Assembly: GCA_013368315.1 (NCBI GenBank)
Contig: JAACJM010000028.1
Span: forward strand, 124,001-188,000
DNA: 64,000 bases
Direction of reading: 5' to 3'
Source: Tetrapyrgos nigripes
Lineage: Eukaryota; Basidiomycota; Agaricomycetes; Agaricales; Campanellaceae
Shown here in pieces: positions 12,460-61,083 of this stretch; position 1 is the stretch's first letter, and each line of letters begins with the position of its first letter. The notes below the pieces were generated by a model. That model saw only the letters and a list, made by a program, of their open reading frames with translations. It was not told the origin of the DNA and ran no database searches. The position numbers and the translations under genes were made by a program.

Positions 12460-12748
12460 GGTTTATTTCCAGAAGGGTTTCGATATACGTGTCGGTTATG
12501 CAGTGGCGACGTCACAATTTGAGAGCCGAGAAAACCAAAATCTTGGTGCAAAGAGAGGCGGCAAGGAGAAGAGTTTCTTTGGACTCTAAACGGCGAACGA
12601 AAGTAGTGGGGAAGTAAGACAAAAGATTGGGGACAACTTGACCGTGTTTCCATTTTCGATGACACGTGGAATCTCCGAGAAATTGTTTGTGCATGTTGAC
12701 CAAAAGCTTCCCACAAATGCCGTCCCTGATTTTCTGACAAGACGCGAC
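12460..12748. promoter_or_regulatory. Shared SEC11-FOL1 divergent promoter region
   Basis: Only about 290 bases separate the SEC11 start (12459, minus) and the chosen FOL1 start (12749, plus), so both transcripts must be driven from this interval. If FOL1 starts at the in-frame upstream ATG near 12659, the gap shrinks to about 200 bases. No clear TATA box is seen, as is common for housekeeping genes. Confidence 0.6.
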
Positions 12749-15700
12749 ATGGACTTCATCCGCGTCAACTCTCTTTCACTCACTCCTTCTCTGGGTGGTG
12801 GTTCAAGATGGCCTCCAAAAAATCCAGCTCTGCAGCCCAAACCTCAACCAATTCTCGTTACTCTTACTGTTCCACATGACATCCAAAGCACAGCTCGAAC
12901 GGATGAATTAGAACACTCGATAAATTATTCCACTTTGGCTTCCACGATACGTGATAAAGTCGACGATGAAAGAAAATCGTTTCAGTCTCTGGAGGATCTG
13001 ACAGGATTCATATTTGATTTGTTGTTGGACGTGAACGCGGACACACCCAGATTATCCGGAGCGCGAGTCAAAGTAACTCAAGTCAAACCTCCATTACATT
13101 GTAAATCAGTTTCGGTGGAGGCTGAGGCTACTTCCTCGGGGAACTCATCATGGGTTTTGAGCTCCACTGGAACTATACACACCATCGAAGATCTCGAATG
13201 CGACCTCATCGTTGGAGTCAATTCCGCTGAAAGACTGGAAAAGCAGATAGTCAGGATTAACATCGCGATACACACGCCAACGTTGGACCTAAGGGACAGA
13301 GAACACTGGATAGATTTCCGAGCTCTGAGTCGCACTGTCTATGAAGTATGTTGTCTTCCCAATCCTACTAGTTTTCTATTAACCTGTGTTTCCAGACCGC
13401 TTCCAACACATCATACCAGACCCTCGAAGCCTTAGCTTCCTTTATTGCTGTCGAAACCCTCAAACACCTCTACACCAGCTCATTCTCCTCGCCATCACCA
13501 GACCGCCCATTATCGCCGAAAGTAATGATTAGAGCGGCAAAACCCTACGCTCTCGTGTTCGCTGAATCCTCCGAAGTAGAGATTACGAGGACTCGAGAGG
13601 ATTATCCGGACCATTTTGCTTCATCCTCTTCATCTGCATCTACATCTATATCGACGATAACGCCTGTTCCACCTCCACCTCCACCGCACGGCAACCAACC
13701 CGAACCCAGGCACCAGCCCCAGTCTCAGAGCAAAGTATACACCGCTGCCATAGCCCTGGGCTCCAACCTCGGAGACCGCTATTACCACATCGAGACCGCA
13801 CTCAGGCTTTTAGAAAAGCCCGTAGAGGTGTTCAGCTTCGAAACCATACTTTCTGATCCTTCCGAAACCCAACTTGAAGTAACAATCACCAATACCTCAT
13901 TCCTCTACGAATCTCCTCCAATGTACCTCACCGATCAGCCTCCCTTCCTCAATTGTGCTTGCCTTGTAAGGACGAATATTCCCCCGGTCGAGCTTTTAAG
14001 GTTGTTGAAGAAAATTGAGAAGATGGTTGGGAGGGTTCCGGGTGTGAGGAATGGTCCGAGGAAGGTTGACTTGGATTTAGTTTTGGTGATCGACGGGGAC
14101 GGGAATGAGGCCGATGGGGATCGGGTTGGGGAACGGGATGTGGAAGCAGTTGAAAGCGACGAAGGGCCAGCAGATGCAGCAAATACGACTCAGCGAAGAG
14201 ATGAATTAGATCAAGGTGAGCGTCCTTTAGTATCTTTTTACTTATTTCTAGATGTATCTGAACCCAGTTTTTTTATCTTTCATCTTTTGATAGAAAAAAT
14301 GCTCGAAGACCCTGAAGCCTCCAAGGTTAAGGACTGGAGGCGTAAATTACAGAGGACTTTCCTTAATTTCAAATCGGCTATAAAAGAAGAGGTATGATAT
14401 CCTGATTGCTGCATCCTCTTTGCTAATTGAATAATTTCTATAGGACATGCCCACCATGGACCAACTCTTCACCACCATAGAATCTTACGACAAAATGAAC
14501 AGGGAATACCTCCAATTCTCCAAGGTTGGCAAGGTCATGCGACGTATAAACGCTCTTGAGCCCGATAAGATTCCTAGGGAGAATGAGTTCAAGTTCCGAG
14601 AGCGCGCAAATGTTTTAATCGACAAGTGGCATGCAATCCTTGGACAGTCTGCCGGTAAAGCTGCTACGAATGGCTCTAATGAAGTAGGCCAAGGGATAGT
14701 CGACACCCGACCTGCCCATAAGAGGGTCAATTTGGAAATTGAGAGCTTGGAAGGAGAATTGGTGGTCCCGCACCCAAGAATGCAGGAGAGAGAGTTTGTG
14801 TTGAGGCCTCTGTATGAGTGAGTGGTATTTTCCTTCGCTCTTCGTATTCGATGTTGCCAGAACACATGAGTGACTAAGTGGCTTTTCTACTCTTTTCTTT
14901 TCACAACTCGGCATAAATCTAAATCTAACGTCTTTTTGCTTTCTCAGCATGATACCGACATATAAACACCCTATTCTGCAGAAAACAATCTCGGAACTTC
15001 TTTGGGAGCTCGATTCCTCTTCCTCTTCACCAACAGATGGACCGACCAACCCCATGAGACGAGTCATTCCGTTTCCAAGATATCCTCTTTCTCCTCCCTC
15101 ATCATCTTCAGAACCAGAACCAGCACCTGCCTTGCCTGTGTTCCCATTTATCGACCCCATCCCCCCAACGGCGACGTATTGGACGTACCCTTACCCCGAT
15201 ACAGATACCTCTCTCTCATCTTCCTATCGAACATATCTAATGTCAACTCTCAATACCACACCCGACTCCTTCTCGGATGGGTCTCAACATAACACACTCC
15301 ACACTGCTTTATCCTACGCATACGATTCTTTCGTCAATAACGCCGATATTGTAGACATTGGAGGGTACTCTACTCGACCTGGGGCTCAATATGTTAGTGT
15401 GGAGGAGGAGATTAGGAGGGTTGTACCTGTTGTTGAGGGGATTAGACGTGGTGGAGTTGAGAACGTTGCCAAAATCTCATCGGCTCGACCTTTGGATGGC
15501 GGAGAACAGGAGGAAGAAGAGGTTCAGCGTCTTCTGGAAATTTTGCCGGGTAGAAACATGCAGGGTACAGAGGGTATAGAGGGAAGCAACGAGAAAGGCA
15601 TGACAACGATGGAGCATATCCTCATAAGCCTTGACACATTCCGTCCAGAAGTAGCAAAAGCTGGAATTTTGGCGGGTGCGAATTGCATCAATGATGTTTA

Positions 15701-16376
15701 CGCATTTTGTGGGCCTTCTTATGTTGGTACGACAACGACGACTACAGTGGCCGAAGAACCTTTATTGTTCGACAACAAATCCCCTTCCACGTACATGTCA
15801 GAAATGAAATCCATCGCACGAACCTTGGCTGTTCCTGTCATTCTCATGCATTCCCGTGGAGATGCTGGTTCTAATAAGGACTACTCTTCCTATGCCGCCT
15901 CCTCTTCCTCGTCCACCACTAAAGCAGATGATGGATCAGATGCTCCCGTAATCGAAGCCATTCGCGTAGAACTTGGTGAAAAAGTCGATAATATCGTTTT
16001 GGGTGAAGGAGGAGTACGCAGGTGGTTTGTTATCGTAGACCCTGGAGTTGGGTTTTCCAAAACCGTAGAGGCGAATTTGGATGTGTTGAGGTATGCAGGG
16101 TCAATTACAGATGACGTGTTTGTTGGGACAGGGAGCAGAAGCAAGAGAAATCCACTTGTCGGATACCCTCAACTCATAGGTCCATCGCGAAAATCGTTTT
16201 TGGGGAGTATCTTAGCTGAAGGGCCAGGTGGAAGACAAACGAAAGCGGTTGAAAGGACGTTCGCTACTGCTGCAGCTGTAACGGCTGCTGTCCAGCAGGG
16301 AGCGTTGATGGTGAGGGTACACGATGTGAGGGAGATGGGTGATGTGGTGAAAGTTGCGGATAGGCTTTGGCGGTAG
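12749..16376 (+). CDS. FOL1: Trifunctional folate synthesis protein (DHNA-HPPK-DHPS) with inserted TFIIS-N/IBD-like domain
   Basis: Five exons (12749-13345, 13396-14215, 14294-14391, 14444-14817, 14948-16376) join in frame to 1105 residues. Tandem dihydroneopterin aldolase domains occupy about residues 1-290 (MDFIRVNSLSL, VTLTVPHDI, WIDFRALSRTVYE). HPPK starts near 314 with ALGSNLGDR and continues to GPRKVDLDLVL near 422. Then come about 190 extra residues, after which HPPK resumes with LVVPHPRMQEREFVLRPL near 614. DHPS fills 630-1105: STLNTTPDSFSDG, GGYSTRPGA, SLDTFRPEVA, VILMHSRGD, VDPGVGF, GPSRKSFLG and RVHDV. The insert holds KVKDWRRKLQ, EEDMPTMDQLF, YLQFSKVGKVMRRI and FKFRERANVLIDKWHAILG (about 483-572), which I read as a TFIIS N-terminal/LEDGF-IBD-like helical domain. 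The start has a good context (GAC before ATGG) and matches the family's usual N-terminus. An in-frame ATG near 12659 would add 30 residues, possibly a mitochondrial presequence. The pathway makes dihydropteroate, the sulfonamide target step. Confidence 0.93.
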
Positions 16377-30301: not shown

Positions 30302-33300
30302 CTAGATCTGCAGTGACCTCGATGCAGCATGCCAGTTCCTGGAATGATCAGCTTGCAACACTTGCACCATTTTAACAGTGTCAGGATGCCTTGCATAGAA
30401 GTCTGCCACTGCCTTTGGAGCATGTACCAAGTCCTCTGCACACTCCCATGAGTCCTCTTGTGGTCCATAGCCTTTCCATCGGACGAGGTATTGCAGCTTT
30501 TTCCAACGTCCATAACGACGACTATCCAAAATCTCTTCAACCTCAAACTCTTCTTTGCCATCGATGATTTCAGGGTCAGGAGGTGGGTCAGGTCTATGAC
30601 CAGGGATAGGATCGTTAGTGTAATGGTCGAGTTTGATGACAGGGAAGACTGGATGGAGGCATTTCATGGATGGGAGAAGTTTCAGCTTGTAGGCACCCTT
30701 GCCGACTTCTTGAAGAACGGTGTAAGGCCCAAGCCAACGGTGACTGAGTTTCTTTGACGGACGGGTTGTATTGATGTCAGAGCCATCCAACCAGACCTTG
30801 TCACCAGGCTTAAAGACGGGGGCAGGGGTACGGCAACAGTTATAGTATTAGGCATACTCTGACTTGGCCTTTGTGAGTGCTGCCTGTGCCTCTGTCCGGC
30901 CTGACTTGAGCCAATCAACAAAGTCATTGACGTTCTCCATTTCTGACTGCTGTATGTGAGGGTTTCGACCAGTGTCAATCATGAAGGGAGTTTGCTGAAT
31001 TGATGCATGGACCTTGTTGTTGTAGGAGAACTCAGCAGTGGGCAGTAGCTCATCCCAATCATCTTGGTGTTGACTCACCCACTGGCACAGGTAACCTTCT
31101 AGCTCTTGATTGACATGTTTGGTCTGCCCGTCTGTCTGTGGGTGGTAGGCTGTAGAAAGCTCCTGTTTGACACCAGCCATCCTACAGAGTTCCTTCATGA
31201 AGTCTGCGACAAACTGTGGGCCACGGTCGGAGTGTGCTGATCTGGGCATTCCATGGTGCTTCCATACTTCCCTGAAGTAGATACATGCAGCTCCTTCAGC
31301 AGTAACTGTTGTATGAGTCTGAAGGAAGTGACCTCTCTTGCCCAACATGTCTACAACCACCATGACTGCGTTGTACCCATGAGCTTCTGGTAGTTTGACA
31401 ATGAAGTTGACTGACACTGACTGCCATGGCTCAGTGGGAGTCTCAGAAGGGACAAGCTCTCCAATGGGGAGGTGACGACGAGTCTTGGTCCACATACACA
31501 GATCACAAGTCTTGGTATACAGCCCAATGTACCGAGACATCTGGGGCCACCAGTAGTTCCGTGAGACAAGTTCAAGGGTTTTGAACCATTCAGAGTGACC
31601 AGTGACCTTGGTGTCATGGTGTTGGAAGACTATGCAACAGCAGAGGTCATGGGAAGGAGGAACATAGATCTTGCCCTGGAAATACAGCAGCCCTTCATGT
31701 TCATCCCATTCTGCACTATGAATAGAGCGAGTGTGGAACTTGTGCAAGGCTTGCACAGCACACATGACTTGTTCCTCTAGCTCGTTTTCACAAACAGCGA
31801 AGCGGACATCTCTCATGATCTCGACTTCTTCACCAGTCAAATCAATTGCAGTAGTGACAGCAGCAATTGAGAACATCTCTGGCTTGAGTAGCACAATGTC
31901 TGAATTGTCATTGGCACCAGTACCATGATCAGGTCAGTGGGACAATGCATCGGGCTTGCCCATAGTGCAGCCAGGACAATGGTGTAGCTGGAAGTCAAAA
32001 CAAGAGAGGTACAGGGACCAACGAGCTTGACATTGATTGAGCTTTTTTGCAGTTTGGAAGTACTCCAAGTTTTTATGGTCTGTCCAGATCTCCACAGGAA
32101 AACGTCCTCCTTCAAGGAAGTGTCTCCATTCCTCAAGGGCTCGGATGATGACTAGCATTTCCTTATCGTGGATCTTGTAGTTGCATTCAACGGCATTAAG
32201 ACTCTTGGAGTAGAAGGCAATGGGGTGCCACTTGTCATCATCTGGAGACTGCTGGGATAAAACTGCTCCTGTAGCATAGTCAGAGCTATCTGACTCCAAG
32301 CAATATGGTCGAGAGTCGTCAGGCATGGTGAGGACAGGGGAGGAGGTGATTAGGGACTTCATGATATCGAAGGTGTCCTGAGCATCCTTAGACCAGTCAA
32401 ACTTGATGTCTTTTCAGGACAGTTCGAACAGCAGTCGTGCGTGATGAGAGAAGTCCTGGATAAACCGACAGTAGAAGCTGGTGAATCCAAGGAAGGAGGA
32501 GACCTCTTTCTTGTTTTTGGGTACAGGCCACTCTGCAACGCCAGACACCTTGACAGGGTCCATTTCAACACGATTATGGGAGATGATGACGCCAAGGTAC
32601 TCAATGCGCATCTTCTCAAACTCACACTTGTCCACTCTAAGGTACAGCTTGTGTTGCCGCAACCGGTCTAGGACTAGGCAAGTCACATGACGATGCTCCT
32701 CAACAGTCTTGGTGTAGATCAAGATGTTGTCGAGATAGACAGATACAACACCCTCCATGATGAGATCATGGAGAATGTCATTCATCATTGTCTGGAAGGT
32801 CACAGGGCTGTTGGTGAGACCGAAGAACATGACAAGGGGTTCGAAGAGACCATGGTTGGTGTGAAAAGCTGCCTTCCATTCGTCGCCTTCACGAATCCAG
32901 CATACATCCAGTTTAGTGAAGTATTGTGCACCTTTGAGGTTATTAACAAGTTCGTTAATCAAGGGCAATGGATAACAGTTCTTAATCGTCATCTCGTTTA
33001 GCACACGATAGTCTTGGACGAGTCAGAGGTTTCCATCCTTCTTCTTTACAAAGAAGACTGGAGACACCATAGGGGATTTGGAGGGACAAATGTGACCAGT
33101 AGACAGATTCTCTGTGAGGAACTCATCAAGGGCCTTTTGTTCATTAGGAGCAAGTGGGTAGACCTTGCAGTTGGCAGGTTTAGAGTCAGGGACTAACTCT
33201 ACTGCATGGTCCCATGGTTTGCAATCTGGCAGCACATCAAAAGAGTCCTTGGAGAAGACATCTACGTACTCATAGAAGTGATCAGGGAGGCCATCATGAG

Positions 33301-58300: not shown

Positions 58301-61083
58301 GTCAAAGTCGAAGCAGCAGCAGCAGCAGAAGCAGATGTACAAGCCAAACCAGCCTCTCCCCTAATAAAAGGCAAATAAATCCTTATAATCAACCTATACG
58401 CGATTAGCGCCAGTTCACAACGCTGTGAGAGCTGGACGGGGGGAGTCTTTGTCTTTGGCTGTGTCTTTGTCTTCATCTTCATCTCGTTCGTCAACAACGA
58501 GAGGGGGGACTCCAAGTCTTCGTCCAACTCTATACCTACATCCATCTCGTCTCCCTCTCCTCCCATCTCTCCCTCTCCCTCCCCCTCCCCCTCTCCCTCT
58601 TCGTCTTCGTCTTCCATTTCCATTTCCATTTCCATTTCCATTTCAACATCCTCTGCCTTCATCATCGCCCTTGCATTAGCATTCGCCTTTCGCTTTGCTT
58701 TACCCCCCTTAATACCAGGTTTAGGAAGAGGGATAGACGATGGTGATGACGACGATGATGATGATGACGACGACACCGAAACAGGTGTAGAACCAGAACC
58801 AGAGCCAGAAACAGGAACCCCCCACTCTTCAGGTAACCCTTCCAAAAAACTCAACACTTTGGATTCCATCGAGGCGGCTTGGTCTATCGTGTATGGATAG
58901 GGGGTTTGTGTTTGTGTTTGCGTTTGTGTTTGTGTTTGGACATTGGAGGTGGGAACAGTGACGCTGTTCATCCGTTGCTTGATGGATCGAACGAGGTGGG
59001 TTAACCTATCCAATTTTTTGCGTTAGTTTTCAGAAACATCAAGGAAAAAAAAAAAAAACCAGAACCCACCTAGCCCTCCACTCAAACCACCTCATACCCA
59101 TACTTTCATCCTCATCTTCGTCTTTTCCATCATCTCCCCTCCCCCCATCCTCTCCCTTTACACCTAACCCCCCAGGTAGTACCACCAACGGCACCCTCTT
59201 CGACATTGGACAAAACACCCTCTCATCGACAGGGCCGATTGGGAGTTTGGTTGAATAGTTTGAGGTTGAAGAAGTTGGGTCTGTTGGGTCTGTTACAAAG
59301 AATGATTAACAGTAGAGAGAGTCAAAAAGGGAAGAGACGAACCCGAGGGAGCCAGCACAGCAACACCTGGACCTATAAGCGGTGCACAACCACGCATATC
59401 GGATATGAACCTATCATAGACACGCGTTAGCTTCCTGTTTTTTTTTTTGAGGTATAACAACTCACAAATCCCACCAAACCACACTCCACCACGCTCTTCT
59501 ACGCATTTCGGATTGCCAGAGTGTGTATTTCTTGTGTCGAGGCTTGGGCCTTTGTTTGGACTTGGGCGAGGTGCTGGGCTTGGTTTCACTTTCAGGGGAA
59601 GCTTTGGAAGCCTTGTTGTTCTTGCCCTTGGTGTTCGCCGAGGTCAAAGTAGGAACCACAGGGGCCCAGGGCATAATCCCATCTTGACGTTCATCCAGCT
59701 CGTCGTAGTCGTTCTCATAGTCGTCACTGTAGTCGTAGTCATAGCCGTCACTGTAGTCGTACTCAAAGTCGTCATCAGGATCCCGATCCAACCCCATCTC
59801 CCTTGCGAGGTTTGTCATTTTGCCGACCTGTGTCGAACGGTGGGTTGTTAGTGGAAATAAATAGATAAAAAAGACACTCACCAACATAAACACCTCGCTT
59901 TCCCTCTCGCTCTTCTTCCCACTCCCCGAATACCTAACCAACCACACAGCCTGCATCTGCAACGCCGTAATATGGTCTAAATCATCTTGGGCTTTCTTCG
60001 TCGCCTCACTGTCATCGTCCCCAGCCTCCCAAACACTGGACGCTTGCACGGAGAGAGCGTACCAGTATTCTGGGTTTGCCTCCTTCTCCTTCCCCCCATC
60101 AAGTAAGCTCTCTGCAACGGCACACCCCAACGCAGCACACAACGCCGAGAAAAACGCCAGAGAGGGAAGAGAGTTGGAGTTGGCTGTTAGGGCTGGGGGA
60201 GATTGGGGGATTTGTGTGGTTGGTGCACTCGCAGACGCATTCGGCATCATGCCAAAAATCTCCATCGCCCTCTTCTTGTCCCTCTGCTTCTTTTCCTTCA
60301 TCATGTCTTTTTGAGCCGACGCAGCAGGTGGGAACCCCTCGCCCACCAAACACATCTCTCTAACCCTCTCTCTGAAATTCCACCAATTGACGAGACCGGG
60401 ATAAGTCTGTGAGAGAGCGTTGGCTGCTAGAGTGAGATAAGAGTCGATGTGTGGGTGTGTAGGTAACAATGATAAAAGGGTGGATGTTATTGTTGGGAGG
60501 TGGTGGGAAGAGGAAGAGGAAGCGGGAAAGTAGATGGCTGATGGAGGGAGGAGGGAGTGGGCTGGGAGGGAATGGTGTGAGGAGGACTTGTTTTCGAGTT
60601 TAACGGAGATGGTGGCCGGATCCAAATCGTGCAGCCAGGCTCCCGCCAACTCTTGCAGGGGAATGCCCAATGAGGTGTGTATCGCCGTCGTCGTCGTCGT
60701 CGTTGTTGTTGTCGGGGGAGGATTGGTAGACGGATAACACGGGGTAAACTCGCCCGAAGTCATCTTTGCCAGCATACTCTCGACCTGAATCAAGCGGTTA
60801 TTGAGAGAATGCAGGTCGACCTTCTCCGCCGCCGCCGGAGAATAGACACATCGCTGAGTGGTATCCCTCTTGACACAGCTCCCGCAGGGCGTGCGTCGGT
60901 CGCATTTCAGCTTGAGTCGTTTGCACTAGAAAACACCTCAGTATACACGCAACTCGCCGGTAGACCCACTCACCTCTGCACAAACAACTGTTACTCTCGA
61001 TCGTATTTGTCTGGAAAGCCTTTAGCAACACCTCAAGGAGAGAAAGAGAGAACATACGGAGGAGAGGGCTTTGGGTCGTCCAT
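55309..61083 (-). CDS. Very long, repeat-rich Zn2Cys6 fungal transcription factor
   Basis: Minus strand, roughly ten exons, about 1,750 residues. A 26-base first exon encodes MDDPKPSPP. Splicing then gives CAECKRLKLKCDRRTPCGSC followed by VKRDTTQRC, a complete Zn2Cys6 binuclear cluster for DNA binding, and a linker helix (LNNRLIQVESMLAKM). The middle homology region follows: LPTHPHIDSYLTLAANALSQ, YWYALSVQASSVWE, ITALQMQAVWLVRYSG, MTNLAREMGLDRDPDD, RRRAWWSVVWWDL, FISDMRGCAP and KLPIGPVDERVFCP, split by a Glu/Asp/Tyr- and Lys-rich insert. The C-terminal 1,000 residues are low-complexity: QTQTQT, EMEMEM, TSTSAS, DKDKD, EREREK, NVNVNV, GVGVGV, then polyGln, GQGQGQ and HPHPHP tracts to YYMD at 55309. 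The Q-rich tail is presumably an activation domain. A 50-base intron near 56163-56212 is required to keep the frame. Target genes are unknown. Confidence 0.85.

Follow-up and report, generated by a model that had tools for sequence, protein, structure and literature searches.

A TFIIS-N-like helical domain inserted in frame in the HPPK domain of Tetrapyrgos nigripes FOL1 and probably copied from a PWWP gene

The folate synthesis protein FOL1 of Tetrapyrgos nigripes carries a real in-frame domain insertion, present in one species among those examined, and a gene of the donor type exists in the same genome. We put at roughly 0.83 the probability that the inserted segment is a copy of genomic DNA of a PWWP gene, received by the FOL1 exon that codes for HPPK, the enzyme having since been translated with a folded domain. 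The window, i.e. the whole stretch of 64,000 nucleotides that was analysed, is part of contig C28 of an assembly of 98.5 Mb in 587 contigs. The features concerned are the following.

12749..16376, plus strand: FOL1 coding region, FolB-FolB-HPPK-DHPS, 1105 aa
12749-13345, 13396-14215, 14294-14391, 14444-14817 and 14948-16376, plus strand: exons of FOL1
13346-13395, 14216-14293, 14392-14443 and 14818-14947, plus strand: introns of FOL1, all GT-AG
13750..14088, plus strand: N-terminal part of HPPK up to DLDLVLV, the best Pfam HPPK stretch (residues 318-430)
14089..14689, plus strand: inserted segment, about residues 431-587 and two introns; the ends come from comparison with relatives and are uncertain by a few codons
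14216..14293, plus strand: intron of phase 1, with an equivalent of 65 nt at the same position and phase in the PWWP gene
14285..14667, plus strand: stretch aligned with the PWWP gene by blastn, in two pieces, broken in the second intron
14294..14644, plus strand: TFIIS-N-like helical domain, split between two exons (about residues 473-572)
14392..14443, plus strand: intron of phase 0, with an equivalent of 115 nt at the same position and phase in the PWWP gene
14690..14817, plus strand: end of the native HPPK loop and C-terminal part of HPPK with PHPRMQER (14768-14791)
14948..16376, plus strand: DHPS exon

Splicing at the four GT-AG introns yields an open FOL1 of 1105 aa, in which HPPK and DHPS are held in frame and the motifs quoted in an earlier note on this DNA are all found in their place. 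The Pfam profiles of FolB (E 5.6e-30), HPPK (2.2e-28) and Pterin_bind (2e-48) matched the protein in the order FolB, HPPK, DHPS, and the best HPPK stretch ends at residue 430, directly after DLD. The public T. nigripes protein D9758_005363 corresponds to the same FOL1 with 4 additional N-terminal residues. The start of the public gene model lies four codons upstream (MPRD) and requires, as judged by eye, an intron of about 20 bases (about 12717-12749); the ATG at 12749 is the plainer start.

We then compared the four domain ranges with those of 41 other aligned FOL1 proteins. At the 115 columns that are invariant in these proteins, T. nigripes FOL1 exhibited no departure, including the 37 columns (26 + 11) that belong to HPPK, and the control rows P0002, P0003 and P0010 depart at 0, 1 and 1 columns, respectively. 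The catalytic motifs are thus intact, as had been claimed. No second FOL1 was found in the T. nigripes assembly, so that HPPK activity, if the fungus makes folate, should derive from the insert-bearing protein.

The distance between GPRxxDLD and PHPRM is 187 aa in T. nigripes FOL1, close to the 190 or so residues first noted, and corresponds to about 157 extra residues. Native FOL1 sequence restarts at IVDTRP, followed by PHPRMQER. The comparison set comprised 119 other FOL1 proteins, taken from the best 120 of 186 matches, and in the 115 of them that could be measured by pattern the gap is 24-31 aa. Short loops were seen by eye in P0022, P0041 and P0068, and P0070 has no GPR motif; the loop is therefore short in 118 of the 119 proteins, one being not measurable. 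A comparison with related FOL1s, proposed in the earlier note, thus leads to the absence of the insert from those examined. Dendrothele bispora and Stygiomarasmius scandens, whose FOL1s are the nearest to that of T. nigripes (tree of 42 FOL1s without the insert columns, quick method, SH-aLRT 100), have loops of 29 aa each. A BLAST search of the insert against the 119 other FOL1s gave E = 1.2 at best. The insert region alone, searched against proteins of about 610-1940 aa, returned only T. nigripes FOL1 (29 candidates scored), the reach of this search being limited, as the domain-bearing P0124, a PWWP protein of 649 aa, was missed. From HPPK structures, we take the insertion point to be the turn that follows the strand carrying the metal-binding DLD residues, at some distance from the active site.

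P0070 is a second FOL1-like protein of D. bispora, encoded on a contig equal in length to that of P0002, and is devoid of the middle of HPPK including GPRxxDLD; it may be a duplicate in decay or the product of a faulty gene model.

A search of the T. nigripes genome (E up to 0.001, 4 candidates scored) located the domain at one place besides FOL1, at C195:88219-88440 on the minus strand. The gene there, on another contig than FOL1, is intact and encodes a protein of 417 aa in which a PWWP domain is followed by a helical domain at the C-terminus, identical to the public D9758_015382. The insert exhibits 70% identity to it over 100 aa, in agreement with the proposal that it is the C-terminal helical domain of a fungal PWWP protein. 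The identities to the PWWP proteins of S. scandens (71%) and D. bispora (69%) are of the same order, the protein of the own genome being no closer.

Against PF08711 (TFIIS helical bundle-like), the insert scored 19.9 bits, just below the Pfam gathering cut-off of 20.6, and the other Pfam families were far weaker (E 0.019-0.047). The corresponding domain of the T. nigripes PWWP protein reached 23.5 bits when cut out alone and 20.4 at full length. With E up to 0.05, PF08711 was matched by 29 of 41 PWWP proteins and by 20 of 21 isolated domains. Two PWWP proteins scored higher (P0124 33.5 bits, P0126 25.7 bits), with two domain copies each, which inflates these whole-protein scores. Membership of the insert in the TFIIS-N superfamily is therefore well supported by sequence comparison, through its homologues rather than through its own score. 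By contrast, comparison with the LEDGF IBD by hhalign gave a probability of 0.14%, whereas the best of 50 shuffled controls reached 3.29%, and a LEDGF-type IBD in the narrow sense is not supported. Of the label TFIIS-N/IBD given at first, only the former half is supported. Neither the sequence of the insert nor the profile of its family gave a meaningful match in the PDB, and it was not possible to map the IBD contact residues given in the accessible part of PMC1839165 onto the insert.

P0124 (Leucocoprinus birnbaumii, 649 aa) and P0126 (Gymnopilus dilepis, 596 aa) carry, downstream of the first, a second and diverged TFIIS-N-like copy, with 47% identity to the FOL1 insert over 78 aa and 44% over 91 aa, respectively. 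In P0124, the second copy becomes recognisably alike at around the second intron site. These double copies may mean that the domain duplicates readily or that neighbouring genes were merged in annotation. In joint alignments of FOL1 with PWWP proteins, the domain was left unaligned in one case and was partly aligned in another.

In the PWWP gene, EKML is preceded by a phase 1 intron and DMP by a phase 0 intron, and these two match exactly the additional introns of FOL1. The check on this gene that the earlier note had suggested thus gave, for both introns that it named, counterparts of the same position and phase. By blastn, the two genes align in pieces of 79% identity over 229 bases and 74% over 136 bases, the latter extending into both introns. 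A local alignment continues to 14677 and, on the 5' side, crosses the first intron into the preceding exon. When the extensions were tested alone, the 5' one was borderline (24 of 500 shuffles reach its score) and the 3' one, after 14648, was within chance (101 of 500). In the second intron, the first 28 bases past the splice consensus are alike in the two genes, with 0 of 2000 shuffles as good; the first intron exhibited a weak likeness at its 5' end only (p 0.036). Without anchoring, the similarity of the intron interiors was not significant (p 0.89 and 0.072).

As the two introns are common in position and phase, the plain reading of these sequences is that the insert would be a copy of genomic DNA from a PWWP-type gene, and a retrocopy was rejected since both donor-type introns are present. 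The claim of a capture of genomic exons rather than of a retrocopy stands in this respect, with the introns kept; the site is within a coding exon and the event is not classical exon shuffling. Intron-mediated shuffling was rejected, as the insert lies within coding sequence and the intron phases are 1 and 0. Non-native coding sequence precedes the first intron of the insert, and HPPK coding sequence follows its end. A search for a target-site duplication found no exact common word of more than 6 bases between 14040-14170 and 14640-14740, and no mobile-element mechanism was found.

The event can be pictured as follows. In the Tetrapyrgos lineage, a genomic piece of about 0.4-0.6 kb from the PWWP chromatin gene would have been copied, with both introns around and inside the TFIIS-N-like domain and probably some of the preceding acidic linker. 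Its landing site in FOL1 would be the exon that codes for HPPK, where a turn follows the catalytic DLD strand, its length and phase preserving the frame and the donor introns being still spliced. FOL1 would since have been translated with a helical bundle protruding from HPPK. We infer here that the modelled splicing is the real one, that the piece adopts a fold and is tolerated by HPPK, and that the copy may have arisen by a route such as break repair.

Over 100 codons, comparison of the insert with the T. nigripes PWWP gene gave a dS of 0.83 and a dN of 0.175, i.e. a pairwise dN/dS of about 0.2. The insert has evolved at about the pace of FOL1 on the T. nigripes lineage (0.35), three to six times faster than the PWWP copy. 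We used simulations in which the PWWP branch evolved at omega 0.06 and the 30 observed amino-acid differences served as benchmark. With synonymous change split equally, an unconstrained insert gave 30 differences or fewer in 0 of 200 simulations, and with a quarter of the synonymous change it did so in 4 of 200. An omega of about 0.35 fits the equal split and one of 0.7 the quarter split (70 of 200); the simulated dS medians (0.91-1.11) are above the observed 0.83. Constraint on the insert is shown by these codon comparisons, its strength being not fixed by them. The lack of stops in the insert means only that FOL1 must be read through.

The junction might in principle be an artefact of assembly or annotation that fuses two genes, a question judged here from one assembly, in which nothing spoke for such a fusion. 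A chimera would be near identical to its source, whereas about 67 of 300 aligned coding bases differ between the insert and the PWWP gene. Both flanks are in frame on the same contig, with a normal C-terminal half of HPPK. A genomic copy with diverged sequence and donor-type introns is thus not a retrocopy and hardly an assembly artefact, and we hold a fusion of this kind to be very improbable. It is also conceivable that the segment is usually removed as one long alternative intron (exitron), most FOL1 then having a normal loop. In-frame GT-AG combinations that span the segment do exist, e.g. 14086-14647. Nevertheless, on a crude consensus count restricted to donors in 14060-14199 and acceptors in 14600-14759, the best of them scored 8.5 compared to 10-11 for the four modelled introns, and the insert coding sequence is under purifying selection, which makes this removal unlikely, if less so than an artefact.

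Concerning the timing, parsimony favours a capture on the Tetrapyrgos branch, because both relatives are devoid of the insert. In a tree of 121 domains (100 columns), the insert and the PWWP-protein domains of the three fungi T. nigripes, S. scandens and D. bispora form a clade (99/91), in which it adjoins that of T. nigripes (83/81); this tree has few columns and its bootstrap was not fully settled. The end branch of the insert is 0.43 compared to 0.075 for the T. nigripes PWWP domain, i.e. 5.7 times as long. In a tree of 30 of these 121 rows, the insert is placed just outside the three PWWP domains (71/84), the four being together at 90/78, with end branches of 0.45 and 0.16 (2.8 times). The latter placement would suit a capture older than the split between Tetrapyrgos and Stygiomarasmius plus Dendrothele, with loss in the last two. 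The AU test is compatible with it, since making the insert sister to the T. nigripes domain gives an equally good fit (p-AU 0.56) and no better one; an arrangement with the S. scandens and D. bispora domains fits less well (0.08), and one outside a wider group of seven was not rejected (0.18). An older capture needs, however, a clean excision giving back a loop of 29 aa, and the 121-domain tree sets the insert beside the T. nigripes gene. L480 and E548 are common to the insert and the T. nigripes PWWP protein, against S. scandens and D. bispora, which likewise argues for the younger event, although the insert agrees with S. scandens and D. bispora at five other sites and with neither side at four. 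Taken together, we regard the older capture as improbable, with a larger share than the exitron, and a capture on the Tetrapyrgos branch as the reading that these sequences favour.

The three PWWP proteins are in agreement at 81 sites, of which 18 are changed in the insert. These changes are not shifted to variable positions (p 0.14; median split 0.37), and 8 of the 18 are R/K, I/V or D/E swaps, the more conspicuous of the others being P30I, I53R, H17R and H67R. Where more than 90% of 117 other relatives have a hydrophobic residue, the insert has kept one in 29 of 30 columns. However, among the 35 positions that are at least 95% conserved, 6 are changed in the insert, whereas none of 120 PWWP proteins has more than 3 such changes. 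The changes include two histidines that 115 and all 117, respectively, of 117 PWWP relatives have retained. The insert thus looks like a domain whose fold was kept and whose family-fixed residues were not.

Because the fold appears to be kept and fixed residues are changed, we consider a folded appendage that is merely tolerated more probable than a docking function that was preserved. That the insert is mainly such an appendage, with its ancestral ligand surface relaxed or altered and retained because its misfolding or loss would harm an essential enzyme, seems to us the somewhat better bet, and its old ligand was probably lost or changed. The main alternative is that it may be a working docking module that binds short linear motifs, as TFIIS-N domains do in transcription factors, and places or assembles the folate enzyme, perhaps near the chromatin or transcription machinery. 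This would be consistent with the 29 hydrophobic columns kept, with the purifying selection on the insert, with the conserved residues kept in the catalytic domains, and with the binding of TFIIS-N domains to short motifs (TIMs, IBMs) in partner proteins, described in the accessible parts of PMC13175633 and PMC7835958. The six changed positions of at least 95% conservation, including the two histidines, speak against a plain retention of the old docking function, and so does the end branch of 5.7 or 2.8 times that of the T. nigripes PWWP domain; we therefore consider the docking module doubtful, with perhaps a minority chance. A new docking function is possible, as it fits the same residue facts as a passive appendage. 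It is a long shot that, in a single lineage of mushrooms, the insert ties folate synthesis to some new partner, which might be the machinery of transcription or chromatin, and so couples the supply of one-carbon units to the demand for methylation or nucleotides. If docking is true, folate synthesis would be linked to a protein-docking network, a link that was not found in the literature searched.

Compared with known systems, T. nigripes FOL1 resembles the other fungal FOL1s (yeast structure 2bmb) in all domains, their order and their conserved residues, and the sequence before and after the insert can be aligned to yeast Fol1. It differs by the extra residues in the HPPK loop. The insert resembles the Agaricomycete PWWP protein D9758_015382 in its helical domain and intron positions and phases, and differs from it by the lack of a PWWP domain, another host protein, faster evolution and changed conserved residues. 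The donor shares with human LEDGF/p75 and HRP-2 (PWWP plus IBD), as described in the accessible part of PMC7835958, the order of a PWWP domain and then a TFIIS-N-type helical bundle, whereas the sequence comparison with the LEDGF IBD did not rise above that of shuffled controls. According to the title of a work cited in PMC9182141, the Plasmodium HPPK-DHPS has non-homologous insertions in HPPK, another case in which HPPK would tolerate insertions.

Among the domain gains of animals (Genome Biol 2010, PMC2926785), as far as the accessible part of that paper goes, internal gain by DNA recombination with a multi-exon piece corresponds to the present case. There, 71% of the gains are at termini and likely intron insertions are below 10%, whereas the T. 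nigripes piece is inside a coding exon. According to the same part, direct examples of the mechanisms of domain gain were still rare in 2010. The kind of event is thus known from that source, and the combination was not found in the proteins or literature searched; in particular, no report of a fusion of FOL1 with a TFIIS-N-like domain was found in titles and abstract openings. In the accessible part of PMC2705460, PWWP and dihydropteroate are mentioned in unrelated table rows, and a lead from the accessible part of PMC8934638 (Ioc4) was dropped.

This one case brings together the likely donor gene, the site, the introns, relatives with an empty site, and selection. It allows testing how an essential enzyme survives an intrusion of about 157 residues into one of its catalytic domains, and what becomes of the ligand of an interaction domain after transplantation, i.e. 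whether it is kept, lost or changed.

Elsewhere in the window, pieces of a Ty3/gypsy-type retroelement lie at 30302-33022 on the minus strand, with matches to reverse transcriptase, integrase zinc-binding and chromodomain in three open frames. Additionally, a frame at 59462-60925 on the minus strand exhibits a match to a Zn2-Cys6 cluster with 21.6 bits, barely above the Pfam cut-off of 21.
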